This document shows, one piece after another, positions 683 through 21,329 of a stretch of DNA of 22,167 nt (positions are counted from its first letter, which is position 1; the number at the start of each line of letters is the position of its first letter). Where the stretch lies: IMG/VR virus record IMGVR_UViG_3300043426_000242, positions 1 to 22,167 of that record; one strand, 5' to 3'. Origin of the DNA: a virus. A model generated the notes under the pieces. It was not told the origin of the DNA. It did not search any database and saw only the letters and a program-made list of their open reading frames with translations. Position numbers and translations under genes: made by a program.

Positions 683-3139
683 TCATTCCTCTTTTGTGGG
701 GGTGGGTTGAGAACTCTGACGAAGCGCGGCAGCCCGCTGCGCTTCCTGTTGTGCGGCGCTTTCGCGCGCACGCAGCTCAGCTTCCTGGGCTGCTTGGGCT
801 TGCTTGAGGGCGAATTCGCGCTCCATCTGCTCACGCTTGAGAGCGAACTCCTGATCCATCTGTTCGCGCTTAAGCGCCGCGTCTTGCTCAATCTTGTAGC
901 GTTCGAGGTCGAACTCCGCTTGCGGGTCTTGGTCGCCTTCTGGTTGCGCTTCCTTCTGAGCCTTGGCCTGCTTGAGCAGCACGTCGGCCTGCTTCGTCTG
1001 GACATCTGCTTCCAGGTTCGCCACGTTGGCTTCGTCTGCCCGCTGCTTGAGTGCGGCAGCGGCCTCATCACCGGCCATGCGCTTGATGATTTCCTGACGG
1101 CGCTGCAAGCGACTGTTCTCGATAAGCACGTCATCAGGGATCGCCACACCCATTTCACGGAGGGCTCGCGCCTGCTCGAACTGGCTATCTTCCAGGCTGT
1201 CGCGGTACGGCGTGGTGGTGATGACTATGTTGTACTCACCCAGCGTAAGGTCGTTCAGGATGGCCCCTGTGGAAGGGTCAGGCTGATTGACTGTGATCCG
1301 CTCAGCCTCACGGGTGACATCCTCGTGCGTGACGTGGATGACCCGCTCTTCGGTGTAATACTGCTGCACCAGATCCAGCACGTTCCTGGCCAGGATCCAG
1401 TCCGTGCGCTGCAGGTTGTCCATGACCTTGGTCAGATTGACCGAGCCCTGCTGGCGCTTGTACGCGATAGCCTTGGCAGCTACGTCCTCGCGGTCAAAGC
1501 CCTGCATCGAGTCACTGACGTTGCTGATCGTCTTGATGTGCTCTTCAGCCTTGTATGACACCCGGTCAAGACCTGTCGGTGTCTGATTTGGCTGGATCTT
1601 CTCAGGCGGCTGAGCACCTTTCTTGTATTCAATGACGAGCCCTGTCTGGGCACCGGAGACTTCAAGCTCTTCAACGCTCATGTTGACGAGGCTGTTTTCC
1701 TCAATCTTCCAGCCGCCGTTCGCTGTGCTGTTGACGATGTGCAGTTCCTGGCTGGAGACCTTGTTCAGTATCTCCTGTGGCCCGAGCAGATTCTCGACAA
1801 TGCCGACCGTGCGGCCGTAGCGGAAGTGGGGGAAGAAAGGCACGACGGTGAAGTGCTTGTACGGGCTCCAGTCGTCATGCAGCACGACGTTGCCTGCAGT
1901 GACCATCCAGCGGATGCGCTTGATGAGCTTCTTCACCGTTGAGATTTGACCACCTGCCTTCTCAAGCAGCGCAGCGATCCGGTTGCGGTCCCAGTCAAGC
2001 GGGATGGGGCGCATGTCACCCGTCACCACGTCGACAAAGTGCTCCTGCTTGTCGAGCTTGCGGTACTGGCGCTCCAGCACGCGGATATTCCGGCGCTCAC
2101 CTACCCTGTCGCCGACACCGTAGTAGCCGCCCATGGGTATGGCCCCGGCGAAGCGATCACGCACGCGCTCGATAGAGTCGTAGCCGTACGGGTAACCTGA
2201 CACGTCGAAGTCACGCAGGTACTCCGCGTCTTCCTCGTTGTAGAGGACCGCCACATCCTGCCAAGTGAGCCACTTGGTGATGAACACGTCATTCCAATAG
2301 TCCGGGTCGTATTCCTCGGCATCCGGGTCGACAATGACGTTCTTGCTGTTGAGCAGGTCTATGCTGACCTCACCCTGCATATCGTCAGCGAAGTCCATGC
2401 GGACATCGTAGAAGCCCCGTGAGCGGATGATGCCGTCGCAGAACACGTCAGAGCGTACCCAAGGCAGTTGGTTGTCCTGGCTGATCTGCATCCACACCTT
2501 GTTCAGCGCCTCAGCCACACCGTCCGGCGCACCGTTGGACGGGCGGAACAACACCTCAGTGCGGTTGTATATCTGCTCACCCAGGATCGTGCTGATCGTG
2601 GACAAAATCTTGTTCACAGTGATTGCCGGCCTGCGCTGTAGCTGCAGCGTGTTCAGATCCGTCTGGAGCCACTGCTCGCCAATGACGTACTTGTCACACT
2701 TGTCGGCTTTCTGGACGAAATCCAGATGCCCTCTGTCACGACAGTTGTGCGCGATCACCAAGCCTGTATCGCCAACCACTGCGAAACGCGCGCGAGGGCC
2801 GCAGTTCAGAATGTCGAACACCGATCTGGAACCCACGTTGAAGCGCAGCGCATAGTCACGGCCCAGGTGCGGGAATGTTTGAGCCTCCACCCACTCACCC
2901 TCTGATAACACCTTGTGGTCTGGGGTCATCTCTATGCCGTCAATTCGAACGCAGGGCTTCTCCCCTTTTGACACCACCCCGTCGCAAGCCACAAACTCCA
3001 CACCGTCAAATACCAAATGCTCAGCGGTTATGTTCTTCAAGGCCACGTAGCCCACGGAAGTGACCACCTTTGCCTCTCCAGATACGCAGAACTGGAATCG
3101 CGCCCACTGCTCGTTCGTCTTGTCGGCATCAATGGGCAT
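683..3139 (-). CDS. P22-type portal protein, interrupted by a mini-intein
   Basis: Precursor of 818 residues. Residues 18-132 are an intein (separate entry); removing it leaves about 703 residues, a usual size for P22-like portals. The portal forms the ring at one capsid vertex through which DNA is packaged and ejected and to which terminase and tail proteins bind. Recognisable portal text includes CRDRGHLDFV after the splice site, the RGFYDVRMDF region and the VDPDAEEYDPDYW region. The C-terminal quarter (about 690-815) is a repetitive, charged segment (EFALKREQM-type repeats), probably coiled coil, like the extended helical barrel of P22 portals. The ATG at 3139 overlaps the upstream small gene by 11 bases, and GGAAAG upstream can serve as ribosome site. 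The stop overlaps an ATG of the scaffold gene. Family assignment is by remembered similarity, not a search. Confidence 0.9.
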   Translation of the reverse strand: MPIDADKTNEQWARFQFCVSGEAKVVTSVGYVALKNITAEHLVFDGVEFVACDGVVSKGEKPCVRIDGIEMTPDHKVLSEGEWVEAQTFPHLGRDYALRFNVGSRSVFDILNCGPRARFAVVGDTGLVIAHNCRDRGHLDFVQKADKCDKYVIGEQWLQTDLNTLQLQRRPAITVNKILSTISTILGEQIYNRTEVLFRPSNGAPDGVAEALNKVWMQISQDNQLPWVRSDVFCDGIIRSRGFYDVRMDFADDMQGEVSIDLLNSKNVIVDPDAEEYDPDYWNDVFITKWLTWQDVAVLYNEEDAEYLRDFDVSGYPYGYDSIERVRDRFAGAIPMGGYYGVGDRVGERRNIRVLERQYRKLDKQEHFVDVVTGDMRPIPLDWDRNRIAALLEKAGGQISTVKKLIKRIRWMVTAGNVVLHDDWSPYKHFTVVPFFPHFRYGRTVGIVENLLGPQEILNKVSSQELHIVNSTANGGWKIEENSLVNMSVEELEVSGAQTGLVIEYKKGAQPPEKIQPNQTPTGLDRVSYKAEEHIKTISNVSDSMQGFDREDVAAKAIAYKRQQGSVNLTKVMDNLQRTDWILARNVLDLVQQYYTEERVIHVTHEDVTREAERITVNQPDPSTGAILNDLTLGEYNIVITTTPYRDSLEDSQFEQARALREMGVAIPDDVLIENSRLQRRQEIIKRMAGDEAAAALKQRADEANVANLEADVQTKQADVLLKQAKAQKEAQPEGDQDPQAEFDLERYKIEQDAALKREQMDQEFALKREQMEREFALKQAQAAQEAELRARESAAQQEAQRAAALRQSSQPTPTKEE
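2744..3088 (-). mobile_element. Mini-intein in the portal protein (115 residues, no endonuclease)
   Basis: Portal residues 18-132 form an in-frame insert that starts with Cys (CVSGEAKVV) and ends with VIAHN followed by Cys as the +1 residue. This is the classical Hint layout: Cys1 nucleophile, a block B motif with T-x-x-H (EMTPDHKV), a block F-like region (VFDILNCGPRARFAV) and the terminal His-Asn before Cys+1. All residues needed for standard protein splicing are present. Only about 115 residues separate the two splice junctions, leaving no room for a LAGLIDADG or HNH domain, so the element cannot home by itself. Excision would join FQF to CRDRGHLDF near the portal N terminus. Splicing activity is inferred. 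Confidence 0.88.
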
Positions 3140-9259: not shown

Positions 9260-9832
9260 TCACCTACGCACTTTCGGTTCAGTAACACCCATGATTTCAA
9301 GCTCACCGTTGAAGCGGTTCCCTTTTGTGGAATTGGTATGAGCGCTCACCACCTGCAGGTTTTGACGAACATGTAACCCACAAACTGTTTCACCGTTAAT
9401 GGGGACAATGTGATCAACCACCCAACCCGGCCCTAAGATCGCCACCAGATCATAGAAAGGCATTGTGTCGGACTTATTTGCCCACCCAGGTACACGACCC
9501 ACTGCCCGCATGGCGCGCCATACGTTGTCAGCGTTTCTCCATGCAGGGTCATTGTCTTTACGCGTTCTTTGCGCCAAATACACGCGCTTCTTGTGCGAAG
9601 AGGAATGAGTTGCGTACCACCTTTTTGACGACTCTTTACCTTCATCAGTCTTTGCCCTGTCCCGAGAGCGCTGCTTAGCTTTGTCTCTGAATGAAACGTC
9701 TTCAGCGTACTTAGCTTTATCCGTTGCGCATCGGCAGTCTTTGCACGCGGCGTTAAGCCCGTCCTTTGACGCCCGCCTCACACTGAAGCAATCACTCGTC
9801 TTTTCAACCCCGCACCGCGTGCATTTCTTCAT
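9260..9832 (-). CDS. HNH homing-type endonuclease with N-terminal zinc ribbon
   Basis: A 190-residue protein. The N terminus has a zinc-ribbon module C4-x2-C7-x22-C30-x2-C33. A basic middle part rich in K and R follows, and then an HNH core with DH at 140-141 (WVVDHIVPI), H154, N158 (LHVRQNLQVV) and N167/K170/N172 (NSTKGNRF). Phage HNH proteins of this type nick or cut DNA and often spread as selfish genes. It sits between the divergent control region and terS, a common place for HNH genes near packaging sites; some phage HNH proteins also assist terminase, so either role is possible. The ATG at 9832 follows AAGAGA. The gene is flanked by non-coding DNA on both sides, consistent with an inserted element. 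Confidence 0.85.
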   Translation of the reverse strand: MKKCTRCGVEKTSDCFSVRRASKDGLNAACKDCRCATDKAKYAEDVSFRDKAKQRSRDRAKTDEGKESSKRWYATHSSSHKKRVYLAQRTRKDNDPAWRNADNVWRAMRAVGRVPGWANKSDTMPFYDLVAILGPGWVVDHIVPINGETVCGLHVRQNLQVVSAHTNSTKGNRFNGELEIMGVTEPKVRR

Positions 9833-15670: not shown

Positions 15671-15820
15671 ATGCTGACCAAACTCAAGGCGCATCTCATG
15701 CGCAAATGGGCAACAGACTTCGGTCTGACCATCGTGAAGATCCGCATCATCGACGACACGGAATACCTCGTCTGTCATGACGGGCATATGCGCAAACTCG
15801 CTAAAAGGGAAAAGAAATGA
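15671..15820 (+). CDS. Small basic protein (49 residues)
   Basis: A short frame starting at ATG 15671, three bases after the previous stop, ending in an ATGA overlap with the exonuclease gene. The product is basic (MLTKLKAHLMRKW at the start, HMRKLAKREKK at the end) with a central strand-like part (LTIVKIRIIDDTEYLVC). The junctions on both sides support it as a real coupled gene. No family is recognised. Confidence 0.55.
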   Translation: MLTKLKAHLMRKWATDFGLTIVKIRIIDDTEYLVCHDGHMRKLAKREKK

Positions 15821-16344
15821 AGAACCTCATGATCGACCTGGAGACCATGGGTAACACACCCAATGCAGCCATCATCGCCATCGGCGCTGTGGAATTCGAC
15901 CCGGTCAAGATGAAACTCGGCAAGGAGTTCTACAAAGTCATCGACCTTGCATCCGCTGTTGAATACGGCGGAGCTATGGACCCGAGCACGGTACTCTGGT
16001 GGATGCAGCAGAGCGACGAGGCACGGGCTGCGTTCCAACGTAAAGGCGAGACCATGCCGGACGCACTCATCGCGTTCATGCACTTCGCTCTCGGCTGCGC
16101 AGTCAAGAAGGACATGGTTGTATGGGGTAACGGGGCTGACTTCGACAACGTGATCCTGGGCAGCGCGTTACGCAATTGCGGTATCGAACAGCCGTGGATG
16201 TTCTACAACAACCGCTGCTATCGCACACTCAAGAACATGAACCCAAGCATCAAGATGACGCGGAGTGGCACACACCACAACGCGCTCGACGATGCTAAAG
16301 ACCAGGTTCTGCACCTCTTCGAACTTTTCGATTCTCTGACTTAA
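15817..16344 (+). CDS. DEDD-type 3'-5' exonuclease (Rv2179c-like)
   Basis: A 175-residue protein with the three exonuclease motifs in order: Exo I IDLET (D7, E9), Exo II NGADFDNV (D108, D110) and Exo III with HNALDDAKDQ (H154, D159). The DEDDh arrangement and small size fit the Rv2179c-like group, which act as 3'-5' exonucleases on RNA or DNA ends. The text DPSTVLWWMQQSDEAR is also typical of this group. Likely roles are RNA turnover, primer removal or proofreading in phage replication. It overlaps the preceding small gene by ATGA and is followed directly by the structured-RNA region. Confidence 0.85.
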   Translation: MKNLMIDLETMGNTPNAAIIAIGAVEFDPVKMKLGKEFYKVIDLASAVEYGGAMDPSTVLWWMQQSDEARAAFQRKGETMPDALIAFMHFALGCAVKKDMVVWGNGADFDNVILGSALRNCGIEQPWMFYNNRCYRTLKNMNPSIKMTRSGTHHNALDDAKDQVLHLFELFDSLT

Positions 16345-16386
16345 CAACACGGAGGGGGCTAGCTATGTAGATCAAATACCAACAAC

Positions 16387-16473
16387 GGTGCTGGCCGTCT
16401 CCCCAGCACCTACAGAACTGCAACTGAGTGCCAATAATGTCGACTTGCGGCATTCGGATGCAGTTCTGTGGGT
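16387..16473 (+). repeat. RNA module 1
   Basis: Hairpin GGTGCTGG/CCAGCACC (16387-16394 with 16403-16410). Its flank ACCTACAGAACTGCA (16408-16422) pairs over 15 positions with TGCAGTTCTGTGGGT (16459-16473), all Watson-Crick except one U-G. The enclosed part has GAGTGCC/GGCATTC. The first three bases of the long stem are shared with the hairpin, so both cannot be fully formed at once. Confidence 0.75.
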
Positions 16474-16500
16474 AGGGCTAGATCCATCTAATTAGATGTG

Positions 16501-16581
16501 CCCACATGGCTTTGCAGGCTGGGAAGAAACCTGCCCCCACATGAGCGGGCGTACTCGCTAACCGAAAGCGCAAGTCTCATG
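16501..16581 (+). repeat. RNA module 2 (degenerate)
   Basis: CCCACATGGCTTTGC leads into hairpin GCAGG/CCTGC (16514-16518 with 16530-16534) with an 11-nt loop ending GGGAAGAAA. In modules 3 and 4 the same stem is GCTGG/CCAGC, a compensatory A-U to U-A change. The flank CCCCACATGAG (16535-16545) lacks a TGTGGGT partner; only CATGAG pairs, with CTCATG at 16576-16581. This module is therefore incomplete or folds differently. Confidence 0.55.
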
Positions 16582-16587
16582 AATCGG

Positions 16588-16698
16588 TGACTTTGCTGGT
16601 GGGAAAGAAACCAGCACCTACAAGCAAGCGCAGAAGACGCAGGCGTGCGTCGGAATGCCGACAACTGGAGTAGCGACCAGTGCGCTTGACTTGTGGGT
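16588..16698 (+). repeat. RNA module 3
   Basis: Starts with a 36-nt sequence (16588-16623) repeated exactly at 16818-16853. Hairpin GCTGGT/ACCAGC (16595-16600 with 16610-16615) carries a purine-rich loop. ACCTACAAG (16616-16624) pairs with CTTGTGGGT (16690-16698) and, after a small internal loop, AAGCGC (16626-16631) pairs with GCGCTT (16682-16687). Enclosed hairpins include GACGCA/TGCGTC and ACTGG/CCAGT. Confidence 0.75.
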
Positions 16699-16817
16699 AA
16701 AAGAGGATCGTTACAGGACGCTGTAACTATGTTTCGCAGGGCATGCCTGCGAGACTGAGCTAATCGACAATTATGCCAATCTGAGGAAGCACCTCGATGA
16801 TGAATAGGTCACCCACA

Positions 16818-16959
16818 TGACTTTGCTGGTGGGAAAGAAACCAGCACCTACAAAGCAGCACCCTTTTGGCGAGTTGCATACTGGCCTTGGAATCCGCAAG
16901 AGACCAAACAGACTTGCACGGTAGCCGTTCCGGCCGGAGAAGGGCGCTGCTTTGTGGGT
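16818..16959 (+). repeat. RNA module 4
   Basis: Begins with the exact 36-nt repeat. Hairpin GCTGGT/ACCAGC (16825-16830 with 16840-16845). ACCTACAAAGCAGC (16846-16859) pairs over 14 positions with GCTGCTTTGTGGGT (16946-16959), and after one A-C mismatch CCCTT (16861-16865) pairs with AAGGG (16940-16944). It is the longest of the module stems and encloses about 75 nt. Confidence 0.75.
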
Positions 16960-17090
16960 TAAGCACACTGAATCGCCTTACCTTGTACCTCCGTGCATTC
17001 GGATAAAGGTGCCGATGAAAGCAAGGACAGTTGTGTCGGATCAGGGGTTCCTAGTCGCCCACTCACTTCAACTTTAACGAGGACAAAGTC

Positions 17091-17531
17091 ATGCAAGTCA
17101 AAATCAAGAAGCTGCACCCCGAAGCAATCATTCCTACCTATGCAACACCCGGTGCAGCGTGCTTTGACCTACATGCCCTCTCATTGAGTGCAACATACCA
17201 TGTGGGTCAATACGCGCCTGATGTTATCGCCACAGGCCTGGCGTTCGAAGTTCCTCAAGATCACGTCATGCTGGTCTTTAGCCGCAGTGGCCACGGGTTC
17301 AACTACGGTGTGCGTCTGGCCAACTGCGTTGGTGTGATTGACAGCGATTACCGCGGTGAAGTGAAAGTGAAACTCACAGTAGACACACCTGATTGCGGCC
17401 TTCACATCAAACACGGCGACCGCATCGCCCAAGCCATGATCCTGCCCATCCAACAGGCGGTCTTTGAAGTAGTCGACGAACTCAGTTCAACTGAACGTGG
17501 CGCTGGCGGCTTCGGCCATACAGGCCGTTAA
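17091..17531 (+). CDS. dut: Deoxyuridine triphosphatase (dUTPase)
   Basis: A 146-residue protein with all five motifs of the trimeric dUTPase family: motif 1 PGAACFDLHA (D26), motif 2 FSRSG (65-67), motif 3 GVIDSDYRGE (D84, Y87), motif 4 GDRIAQ (109-114) and motif 5 RGAGGFGHTG (136-145). It converts dUTP to dUMP and pyrophosphate, keeping uracil out of phage DNA and supplying dTMP precursor. Motif 2 is followed by HGFNYGV rather than the more usual LA- or L-G-type text, and motif 5 has His in place of the usual Ser after GGFG; these are variants, not losses of catalytic residues. GAGGA upstream serves as ribosome site. It follows the structured-RNA region. Confidence 0.95.
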   Translation: MQVKIKKLHPEAIIPTYATPGAACFDLHALSLSATYHVGQYAPDVIATGLAFEVPQDHVMLVFSRSGHGFNYGVRLANCVGVIDSDYRGEVKVKLTVDTPDCGLHIKHGDRIAQAMILPIQQAVFEVVDELSSTERGAGGFGHTGR

Positions 17532-17533
17532 AC

Positions 17534-18037
17534 ATGCCGAGCAAAAATGACAATCGGCACAAGATTATCGGCGGAAGACATCGAGCGCTGGCACGTTATT
17601 ACATGATGTGCCACCGAGTGAAAAACACCCGTACGTCGAAGAACGCATCCTATAAAGGCGTTCAAGTGTTGGTATCAAAAGAAGATTTTGTTAAATGGTT
17701 CATGGCGAGAGATTTCGAGAGATGTTCTATTGATCGAATAGATAACAACGGCCACTACGATCTTTTAAATATGCAAGTTATACCTCTAACAGAAAACATC
17801 GCAAAAGACAAACGCTTAGCCAATAACGGGGTTTGTAGATGCTATGTGTGCAAACAACAAAAAACACTCAATGACTTCGTTTCTGACAACAGACGAACAA
17901 CCGGAAAATCCACGATCTGCAAAGCATGCGACTCAAAACGGGTAAAAAACGAAAGTCGTGAAGCAAGAGAACAGCGGCGTAAACGAGAAGCAGTCAGTTA
18001 TCAAAAACGAAAAGCATCGAAAGGTCTCTTAAAATGA
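17534..18037 (+). CDS. HNH-type endonuclease with C-terminal zinc ribbon
   Basis: A 167-residue protein starting three bases after the dUTPase stop codon begins to end the previous frame, and overlapping the next gene by ATGA. The core SIDRIDNNGHYDLLNMQVIP followed by LTENIAKDKR (residues 65-94) matches HNH-like proteins carrying the D-R-I-D-N-x-G-Y pattern. A C-terminal zinc module C103-x2-C106-x22-C129-x2-C132 follows, then a very basic tail. Base composition is clearly AT-richer than dUTPase and the nuclease on either side, a sign of recent insertion. It is most likely a free-standing mobile endonuclease. The zinc module has the same spacing as the N-terminal module of the HNH protein at 9260-9832. 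Confidence 0.82.
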   Translation: MPSKNDNRHKIIGGRHRALARYYMMCHRVKNTRTSKNASYKGVQVLVSKEDFVKWFMARDFERCSIDRIDNNGHYDLLNMQVIPLTENIAKDKRLANNGVCRCYVCKQQKTLNDFVSDNRRTTGKSTICKACDSKRVKNESREAREQRRKREAVSYQKRKASKGLLK

Positions 18038-18902: not shown

Positions 18903-19099
18903 GCGCCAGATGCTTCGCAGTTAACGCTCGTAAATCACGTTGCTCTAAAGGTGCCACTCATGAACGCCAAGGCTGCCCGGTCTGCCAAACCCACTTCCAC
19001 AGTGCCAAGTTTATTCAAGCACCAGAAACAAAGTCTCGCGCTACTGAGAACTCAGCCCGAAGTTTTCGATATGAGCGACCCTGGGTGCGTGAGCGCTGA
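18899..19099 (+). CDS. Small Cys/His-rich protein overlapping the helicase start
   Basis: A 66-residue frame starting in an ATGA overlap with the previous gene. Its first half has C5, C15, C26-x2-C29 and H32 (RCFAVNARKSRCSKG, then GCPVCQTHFH), resembling small phage zinc-binding proteins with R-C-x(6-8)-C-x-x-H endings. The second half overlaps the helicase gene in another frame by about 140 bases and reads like shadow, ending just inside the intein. Either a genuine small zinc protein has been overlapped by the helicase start or only the helicase frame is used; the start context favours the former slightly. Confidence 0.45.
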   Translation: MSARCFAVNARKSRCSKGATHERQGCPVCQTHFHSAKFIQAPETKSRATENSARSFRYERPWVRER

Positions 19100-21329
19100 T
19101 ACTGAGTTCTTAACGCCAAACGGATGGAAAAGAATTGACGCCTATTCAAATGGCGACAAAGTAGCTCAGTTCTACCCCGACTCACGTGAAATAGAATTCA
19201 TTGAGCCAATTGCATACGTGAAACGCCCCTGCTCGAAAATGATAGCGATAGCTCCCGTGCGAGGTACATCGCAACGGTTATCACATGAGCATCGAGTGCT
19301 GTTCTATAAGCAAGACGGATCATACGACGTAATGAGTGCATCCGATTACAAAGCAGCACTGCATCAAAAAGGCCCTGGCCATTTTAACGCCAAGTTCTGC
19401 AGCACCTTCTCTGTTCGAGGACATAACGTGCTCGATTTAAGCGATGCGGATTTGAGAGTAATGGTCGCCGTAATTGCAGATGGGCACTTTGGCAGCAAAA
19501 CTCTGCGTTGTACGATGCGCTTGAAAAAAGCACGCAAAATCGTTCGGATTAAAGCGCTGCTTGAACAAGCAAATATCCCGTTCCACGAGCGCCAATGCAA
19601 TGGTACTCCTGATTTTCAAGTCATTACGTTCGAAGCACCGCGTAGGCAAAAAGAATTTGAATCAGATTGGTGGAGAAGCACGCAAAACCAACTTGAAGTA
19701 ATTGCAGATGAACTGCCTCACTGGGATTCAGCTGAAGACAAGCGCCCCAGCTCAGGAACACGTTTTAGCACGTTCATTGAATCAACAGCCAATTTTGCTC
19801 AGTACGCGTTTTCTGCAGCGAAACGCCCAAGCTCTTTGACGTTCAGTTATCGCGATAGAACAGCTGAAGGTCGTGGAAAAATGTTGGAGTATGTTGTTCA
19901 TGCTCGCGCTAAGGATCAGCTCATTGGTCCAGGACGGGCTACTTCTGTTTTTGAAATTGACAACCCAGAAGGATTCAAATACTGCTTCGAAGTCCCGACC
20001 AGTTTCCTGCTGCTGCGACACAATGGGTACATTTTTGCGACAGGTAACACGGGAAAAACAGCCGTTGAGATCGTCGACTTTGCAGAGCGCCGAAGTAAAG
20101 GCGCACCACCTGCAATCATCCTGGCTACGAAGTCACTGCTGACATCAGCTTGGCAGAATGACTTCACCACCTTCGCTCCAGACCTACGCACCTCAGTGGC
20201 GTTCGCAGAGAATCGTGAAGAAGCAATGTCTGTCGAAGCAGACGCGTACATCTTGAATCACGACGCAGCAAAATGGCTGGCGGATCAAAAATCAAAGTTC
20301 TGGAAGCGCTTTGAAGGGGGTACTTTTGTATGCGACGAAAGTACAGCTTTTAAACATCACACAAGCCAGCGTGCCAAGGCCTGCGCCAAGATTGCAGACT
20401 ACTTTGAACACCGTCGTCTGCTATCTGGAACACCAACACCTAACGGTGTTTGTGATCTGTGGCACCAAATGAAGATCCTTGATGGCGGCAAACGCTTGGG
20501 GACTTCATTCTTCAAATTCCGCGCAGCAGCCTGCGTACCTGAGCAAATTGGTCCAATGTCGAACATGGTCAAGTGGGTGGACCGCGACGGCATCGAGCAG
20601 ACCATCGCCACGCTGCTAAAAGACATCACAATTCGCCATCGCTTTGAAGACTGCGTGGATATTCCGGCCAACACACTACGTCGAGTAACGTTCAAACTGA
20701 ACAGCAAGCACATGCGCCTCTACAAAGAGATGGAAGGCACGCAGCTATTGCAACTTGAACACAAGACTGTCACAGCAATCAATGGTGCAGCCGTCTTCAC
20801 AAAATTACTTCAGATAGCAAGCGGCGGGGTATATGACCAGGACCGCGTAACGCAGCTCATCGACAGCGACCGCTATGAGCTTGTACTAGATCTTGTCGAA
20901 GAACGTCCACACTCAGTAGTGTTCTTCTTGTGGCAGCATCAGCGTGACGCCCTCGTAGAGCTTGCAGAGAAACGCGGGCTTACATTTGCCGTATATGACG
21001 GCACAACGTCTGACCGAGAGCGCACAGGTATCGTCAAGAGATATCAAGAAGGCGCTTACCGTGTGTTGTTTGCGCATCCTCAGTCAGCAGGCCATGGACT
21101 GACGCTTACCAAAGGCACAGCGACGATCTGGGCCTCGCCCACGTACAACTTCGAGCACTTCCAGCAAGGGCTCAAGCGCATTCACCGTATTGGTCAAACT
21201 GAACGCACAGAGAACATAGTCATCTGCGCAGACGACACATTAGACAACGTGGTGTGGGAGAAGTGCCAGGTGAAGGAAGCCCGAAGCAGCTCGCTGCTCG
21301 ATGAACTCAAGAAGATGATCCGGCGATGA
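18960..21329 (+). CDS. SNF2-like DNA helicase/ATPase interrupted by an intein in Walker A
   Basis: Precursor of 789 residues; intein at 43-363. The spliced protein of about 468 residues has FKHQKQSLALL (Q motif-like), Walker A DPG|TGKT restored by splicing, motif Ia ILATKSLL, motif II DEST (459-462), motif III LLSGTPTPN (487-495), and motif V/VI with HGLTLTKGTA and QGLKRIHRIGQT (735-747). This is the SNF2/superfamily 2 set common in phage replication operons, where such proteins remodel or translocate on DNA. ATG 18960 is chosen because AAAGG lies eight bases upstream; an alternative is GTG at 18951. It overlaps the following zinc-ribbon gene by ATGA. Without splicing the ATPase site would be cut in two, so activity depends on the intein. 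Confidence 0.9.
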   Translation: MNAKAARSAKPTSTVPSLFKHQKQSLALLRTQPEVFDMSDPGCVSADTEFLTPNGWKRIDAYSNGDKVAQFYPDSREIEFIEPIAYVKRPCSKMIAIAPVRGTSQRLSHEHRVLFYKQDGSYDVMSASDYKAALHQKGPGHFNAKFCSTFSVRGHNVLDLSDADLRVMVAVIADGHFGSKTLRCTMRLKKARKIVRIKALLEQANIPFHERQCNGTPDFQVITFEAPRRQKEFESDWWRSTQNQLEVIADELPHWDSAEDKRPSSGTRFSTFIESTANFAQYAFSAAKRPSSLTFSYRDRTAEGRGKMLEYVVHARAKDQLIGPGRATSVFEIDNPEGFKYCFEVPTSFLLLRHNGYIFATGNTGKTAVEIVDFAERRSKGAPPAIILATKSLLTSAWQNDFTTFAPDLRTSVAFAENREEAMSVEADAYILNHDAAKWLADQKSKFWKRFEGGTFVCDESTAFKHHTSQRAKACAKIADYFEHRRLLSGTPTPNGVCDLWHQMKILDGGKRLGTSFFKFRAAACVPEQIGPMSNMVKWVDRDGIEQTIATLLKDITIRHRFEDCVDIPANTLRRVTFKLNSKHMRLYKEMEGTQLLQLEHKTVTAINGAAVFTKLLQIASGGVYDQDRVTQLIDSDRYELVLDLVEERPHSVVFFLWQHQRDALVELAEKRGLTFAVYDGTTSDRERTGIVKRYQEGAYRVLFAHPQSAGHGLTLTKGTATIWASPTYNFEHFQQGLKRIHRIGQTERTENIVICADDTLDNVVWEKCQVKEARSSSLLDELKKMIRR
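19086..20048 (+). mobile_element. LAGLIDADG intein in the helicase P-loop (321 residues)
   Basis: The insert begins with Cys (CVSADTEFLTPNGWKRI, block A) and has a block B-like LSHEHRVLF with the catalytic His. It ends with a block F-like KYCFEVPTSFLLL and ATGN before Thr as +1 residue. The penultimate position is Gly rather than His, a known variant. The middle contains an endonuclease of LAGLIDADG type: DLRVMVAVIADGHFG (about residues 164-178 of the precursor) is a clear first motif. A second, degenerate motif is EVIADELPHWDS, followed by RFSTFIESTANFAQYAFS, typical downstream text. The insertion point lies between Gly and Thr of the P-loop, a favoured site for inteins. It is more AT-rich than the flanking helicase. 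Confidence 0.9.

Follow-up and report, generated by a model that had tools for sequence, protein, structure and literature searches.

The locus and its predicted fold

The window, the whole stretch of DNA that was analysed, is an IMG/VR record of 22,167 bases with genes for terminase, portal, primase, exonuclease, dUTPase, RecB-like nuclease and helicase. The presence of terminase, portal and primase genes in a virus record indicates a phage or prophage origin, and Pseudomonas phage KPP25 is its nearest characterised relative by primase (34% identity). Within the replication gene cluster, a gap at 16345-17090 separates the exonuclease and dUTPase genes. No plausible gene was found in it, the longest open frames being 52-68 amino acids, all on the minus strand. 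The initial annotation had described this stretch as gene-free, with which we agree, and a coding stretch was rejected for 16348-16995. The RNA domain lies on the plus strand, as do both flanking genes. The KPP25 annotation shows no comparable gap 3′ of its exonuclease gene, and the window RNA is therefore regarded as an accessory piece.

The core hairpin of the window modules is designated T2 (consensus UGACUUU-GCnGGU-GGGAAAGAA-ACCnGC). Bit scores and E values below are from covariance model R3, built from 17 T2 rows with the window rows left out, one row (L084) being identical to module 4; calibration of the covariance models was short. The features of the locus are as follows.

15817-16344, plus strand: exonuclease gene upstream (phrog_255, PF16473; PHROG and Pfam family match)
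16348-16995, plus strand: whole RNA domain, closed by an 8-bp end helix; z -10.2; no Rfam match
16387-16473, plus strand: module 1, hairpin GGTGCTGG-CCGTCTCC-CCAGCACC (ACC common to hairpin and stem) and a 15-bp long stem; z -7.2
16501-16506, plus strand: strand c, CCCACA, a possible partner of TGTGGG 16467-16472 as an alternative to the upstream CCTACA 16409-16414 (putative role)
16506-16541, plus strand: module 2, divergent T2 hairpin followed by CCCACA (16536-16541); R3 26.8 bits, E 4.8e-4
16587-16698, plus strand: module 3, T2 hairpin 16587-16618 and long stem; R3 53.3 bits, E 1.8e-9; z -5.7
16699-16811, plus strand: linker domain that forms two stable hairpins (16710-16727; ~16731-16755); z -2.9
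16812-16817, plus strand: strand c, CCCACA, fully complementary to TGTGGG 16692-16697 (putative role)
16817-16959, plus strand: module 4, T2 hairpin 16817-16848 and long stem; R3 54.4 bits, E 1.1e-9; z -5.4
17091-17531, plus strand: dUTPase gene downstream

Compared with 20 dinucleotide shuffles, the plus strand of 16348-16995 folded with the z-score listed above, and the minus strand was weaker (z -6.8). The predicted pairing of the domain ends by a perfect 8-bp helix (CACGGAGG, 16348-16355, with CCTCCGTG, 16988-16995) was present in both the MFE and centroid folds. All four GCTGG-type hairpins reported initially were located, with arms GCTGG 16390-16394 / CCAGC 16403-16407 in module 1, GCAGG 16514-16518 / CCTGC 16530-16534 in module 2, GCTGG 16595-16599 / CCAGC 16611-16615 in module 3 and GCTGG 16825-16829 / CCAGC 16841-16845 in module 4. 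However, the module 1 loop (CCGTCTCC) differs from T2 and the T2 model has no match there. The A-U to U-A swap described between the hairpin of module 2 and those of modules 3 and 4 is present in the sequence.

Long stems of 14-15 bp had been claimed for three modules. This holds for module 1 (15 bp, 16408-16422 / 16459-16473) and module 4 (14 bp, 16846-16859 / 16946-16959), but module 3 has 9 bp (16616-16624 / 16690-16698), then a bulged A and ~7 further pairs. Module 2 lacks such a stem, and its fold alone is not significant (z -1.2). Three stems of at least 11 bp were observed in the region against a mean of 0.42 in shuffles, a count reached in only 2 of 200 shuffles, and the long stems of modules 3 and 4 each had p 0.005 against shuffles. 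The three long stems differ in sequence with pairing kept, as had been noted, and each contains one U.G wobble, which fits an RNA read on the plus strand. What had been called strong internal covariation is weak evidence alone, as the copies lie within one molecule; the stronger evidence comes from relatives in other phages.

The position among replication genes and the long inverted repeats might also suit a DNA element (a replication origin, packaging or recombination site) in which the repeats act as DNA. We consider this very improbable, as G.U pairs in the stems become A.C on the opposite strand and the plus strand folds better.

No Rfam family matched the window at gathering score, and a search of the gap stretch at E up to 10 gave three matches only, weak and unrelated. 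The initial annotation had been reminded of GOLLD and ROOL and had proposed HEARO as a further model for comparison. The GOLLD covariance model scored below gathering in the window, without a weak match even at E up to 10, and the ROOL and HEARO models gave no match; identity with GOLLD, ROOL or HEARO is therefore unsupported. ARAGORN and Rfam detected no tRNA, tmRNA or CCA end in the window RNA, and with no tRNA-like domain, tag reading frame or covariance model match, a degenerate tmRNA was rejected. A blastn search with the whole region as query found no match among INPHARED phages. The only full-length relative was an identical contig, not an independent one, and the overall fold thus rests on one sequence together with its shared modules.

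The T2 hairpin in other phages

Phages with related dUTPases mostly lacked the RNA. Only one of these relatives (L011) had T2, far from its dUTPase gene, and synteny was therefore no guide. Its hairpin shares 31 identical bases with that of the window, lies next to phage tRNAs and is followed by its own 18-bp long stem of different sequence. Pattern scans of IMG/VR placed T2 in ~18 distinct settings in otherwise different phage contigs, and T2 loci include Gordonia phage Orchid and a prophage-like locus of Paludibacterium denitrificans. Other scan matches (L103-L105, L107, L109-L111, L113, L114, L117, L119-L122, L125-L127, L129 and L132-L139) were set aside as chance matches because the TGAC and loop context of T2 is missing from them, and several appear to be coding sequence. 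Among 398 sampled genomes from the phylum of L140, T2 occurred only in the genome already known.

Among 18 distinct sequences, the T2 stem had a covariation score of 0.240, compared with 0.104 in shuffles and no more than 0.095 when slid, and four pairs were changed on both sides. Model R3 recovered three T2 copies in the window, with the E values given in the feature list. A possible pairing between CUUU, 5′ of the stem, and AAAG in the loop was kept in all T2 sequences; since its pairs are almost invariant, this candidate pseudoknot has no support from covariation. Taken together, the fold, the lack of a gene, the compensatory changes in T2 and the shared strand with the flanking genes support the initial view of a large modular structured RNA in a phage replication operon, and the structure of the window RNA is well supported.

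T2 loci occupy gaps of ~0.4-1.5 kb without convincing genes, commonly near tRNA or tmRNA genes. Long upstream frames were co-oriented with T2 in 15 of 20 loci, with the strands close in several; this orientation, together with the many genome positions occupied, also argues against a DNA element. Downstream neighbours vary and include dUTPase, tRNA and tmRNA genes and others, which suggests action in trans rather than in cis.

A cis-acting alternative is an RNA that modifies RNA polymerase, similar to the put antiterminators of phage HK022, allowing passage through the operon and through tRNA islands. In HK022 put RNA, two stem-loops stand side by side and a 5′ strand forms pairs with the loop of stem I (PMC9378689). 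We located putL in the HK022 genome (25 of 25 published positions). T2 followed by a long stem is loosely similar to put in order and topology, and T2 often lies just before tRNA genes; the companion module described below is also located downstream of pR′ in the late leader of HK620. However, comparison by eye revealed no evident sequence similarity or shared motif between T2 and putL, the loop lengths are unlike, the window RNA is ~9 times as long as put and has several modules, and no sigma-70-like promoter was found near it. Such a cis-acting role appears unlikely.

A long stem exceeding shuffled controls directly follows T2 in window modules 3 and 4 and in L011/L084, L085, L088, L091 and L097, and a matching stem was absent from about half of the T2 loci. 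In L092, L106 and L115, T2 directly precedes a tRNA, which takes the place of the long stem. T2 may therefore serve as a building block of different RNAs. Being short and also present inside a phage tmRNA, it could instead be a generic stable motif, a compact hairpin or pseudoknot recruited by several unrelated RNAs, and the window RNA would then be single and isolated. The loci with a tRNA directly after T2 and those lacking a matching stem are consistent with such recruitment. On the other hand, T2 and its long stem reappear together as a unit in L084, L085, L088, L091 and L097, and RNAs common to T2 and its companion module exceed chance, leaving a generic motif a doubtful explanation, if somewhat less so than the cis-acting one.

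The tmRNA in question (L128, 1580-1913; tag GNYNTYNVAYA) contains the T2 hairpin between its tag frame and acceptor end. This occurrence and tRNA-like surroundings are the likeness between T2 RNAs and tmRNA, normal and permuted (RF00023, RF04321).

In phage Orchid (L099), a Pistol ribozyme match was detected at 2350-2423 (36.9 bits; gathering score 34.5), just upstream of the T2 hairpin, tRNA-Leu and tmRNA genes.

A companion module and a shared strand order

A second module, T1, was found in the same gap as T2 in L088, L097 and L140, with a weak T1 match in L091 (three to four loci), and the two modules share RNAs more often than expected by chance. T1 is a three-way junction in which one stem covaries heavily and a kissing loop is predicted; its sequence is TGTTGGTG-AA-T-GCGC-AGGCTGAT-GCGC ... 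AAGCCGG-AGATCAGCA-CCGGC-CACCAACA. Its loops are complementary (GCTGAT / ATCAGC) and mostly invariant, from which the kissing loop is predicted. In 109 modules, identified by a search anchored on the loops only, a mean of 7.25 of 8 outer-stem positions were paired, compared with 4.84 for shuffled partners (maximum 5.26 in 1,000 shuffles), and 33 different fully paired sequences were found. Among 20 T1 sequences, 98.3% of cells were paired versus 87.4%, with a covariation score of 0.308 versus 0.103; the T arm, which was set by the search pattern, is invariant in this count. G.U exceeded A.C mismatches in T1 modules by 23 to 7 (p 0.005), a bias that fits RNA on that strand and conflicts with a role as DNA.

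T1 is widely distributed. It was present in at least 120 IMG/VR contigs among the pattern-scan matches listed and in 236 INPHARED phage records, and the HK620 form or a near relative occurred in 153 of 5,426 complete E. coli genomes. Nine genomes in the 398-genome sample had a match, ~5 of them strong. In HK620 and HK633, T1 lies in the late leader, with pR′ on one side and the holin gene on the other, and in swi2 it precedes tRNA-Met. Phage P1 carries two T1 modules between tRNA-Thr and tciA, and T-arm-like GGGTTCGAATCCC pieces occur in the P1 relative. Rfam gave no match at the T1 position in the scanned loci.

Two doubtful P1 genes, plp and upl, are annotated antisense over the T1 RNA (L340, 1155-1724) and may be spurious.

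In T1 RNAs, two alternative pairing partners are available to a strand b (e.g., TGTTGG), strand a upstream of it and strand c downstream. Exact copies of strand a were present within 350 bases upstream in 35 of 103 T1 modules, compared with 11 for permuted words. A hairpin precedes strand a in 19 of these 35, and 9 of the 19 have either a GAAAGA loop in a sequence-variable stem or the T2 loop. The window shows the same order of strands pairable both upstream and downstream, repeated, as CCTACA, TGTGGG and CCCACA. In L281, a T1 module is enclosed by a stem (ACCTACAAAG / CTTTGTGGGT) similar to window module 4.

The window RNA itself lacks the T1 kissing-loop module; with filters off, the T1 model found no T1 in the window, the best score being 7 bits. 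The window RNA is thus linked to the T1 RNAs of P1, HK620, HK633 and swi2, which are outside Rfam, through T2, present in the same RNAs as T1 in L088, L097 and L140, and through architecture, not through the T1 model. We tentatively suggest that these RNAs could belong to one widespread, unnamed superfamily of large modular phage RNAs that includes those of P1 and HK620 and folds by strand exchange, within one RNA or in an oligomer, although at present we would sooner doubt than assume so broad a grouping.

The frequent association with tRNA genes raises another possibility, a tRNA mimic or decoy for tRNA-processing enzymes or tRNA-cutting defence nucleases, whose hypervariable parts would result from an arms race. 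In L097 (5030-5102, minus strand), the 5′ acceptor strand of a predicted tRNA-Val doubles as the 3′ strand of a T3-type long stem; because one strand serves both, the two folds exclude each other. This overlap and the T-arm-like pieces in the P1 relative make a tRNA-related decoy conceivable, and stems and inserts are indeed hypervariable. However, the window RNA has no tRNA, tmRNA or CCA end, the T1 hairpins differ from canonical D and T arms and their loops pair with each other, and GOLLD and ROOL, too, commonly have tRNA neighbours (PMC12286853). A decoy function is, in our assessment, improbable.

A candidate trans-acting phage RNA

We propose, with a probability of about 0.6, that 16348-16995 encodes a transcribed, trans-acting large structured phage RNA, whose transcription and function we infer. 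Most likely it is similar in kind to GOLLD and ROOL and represents a separate, apparently undescribed family. GOLLD (RF02032) and ROOL (RF03087) are large (600 nt and more), modular RNAs of phages and prophages, commonly near tRNA islands, with hairpins and kissing loops and with unknown function (PMC12286853). These are the nearest kinds to the window RNA, which is similar in size, modularity and phage setting. On the other hand, neither the window nor the related loci had a covariance model match, and T2 and T1 have their own consensus. We found no earlier description of these RNAs in a literature search conducted mostly outside subscription journals, so one may exist.

The RNA would be read on the plus strand together with the replication genes. 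In the modular design proposed, T2 is predicted to stack via one unpaired base on the long variable stem, and the CUUU strand perhaps forms a pseudoknot with the loop. TGTGGG would exchange between its CCTACA and CCCACA partners. The conserved hairpins may make tertiary contacts, and the variable stems and loops would carry phage-to-phage differences. Acting in trans during infection, the RNA might serve as a folded particle or scaffold, as is assumed for GOLLD and ROOL; any oligomer would be a putative form.

Few large structured phage RNAs are known, and their role is an open question. If the link to T1 RNAs is true, there is another set of such RNAs, and its companion module sits in P1 and in HK620-like E. 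coli prophages, in which deletion, RNA mapping and structure work are routine, and function would thus become directly testable. Such a link would also account for gaps left without annotation, and for some doubtful small genes, in phage genomes.

Several other features of the window were observed. An intein (CVSGEAKV ... VIAHN before C) seems to be present near the start of the portal frame (683-3139, minus strand), whose portal-family match is limited to residues 138-804. The helicase (18951-21329, plus strand) appears to be interrupted within its Walker A loop (DPG / CVSADTEF ... FATGN / TGKT) by an intein of ~320 residues, with helicase domains starting at about residue 352. Two small genes, 9260-9832 (minus strand) and 17534-18037 (plus strand), resemble free-standing HNH endonucleases; the former was judged by eye, and the latter, directly 3′ of the dUTPase gene, has weak PHROG matches.
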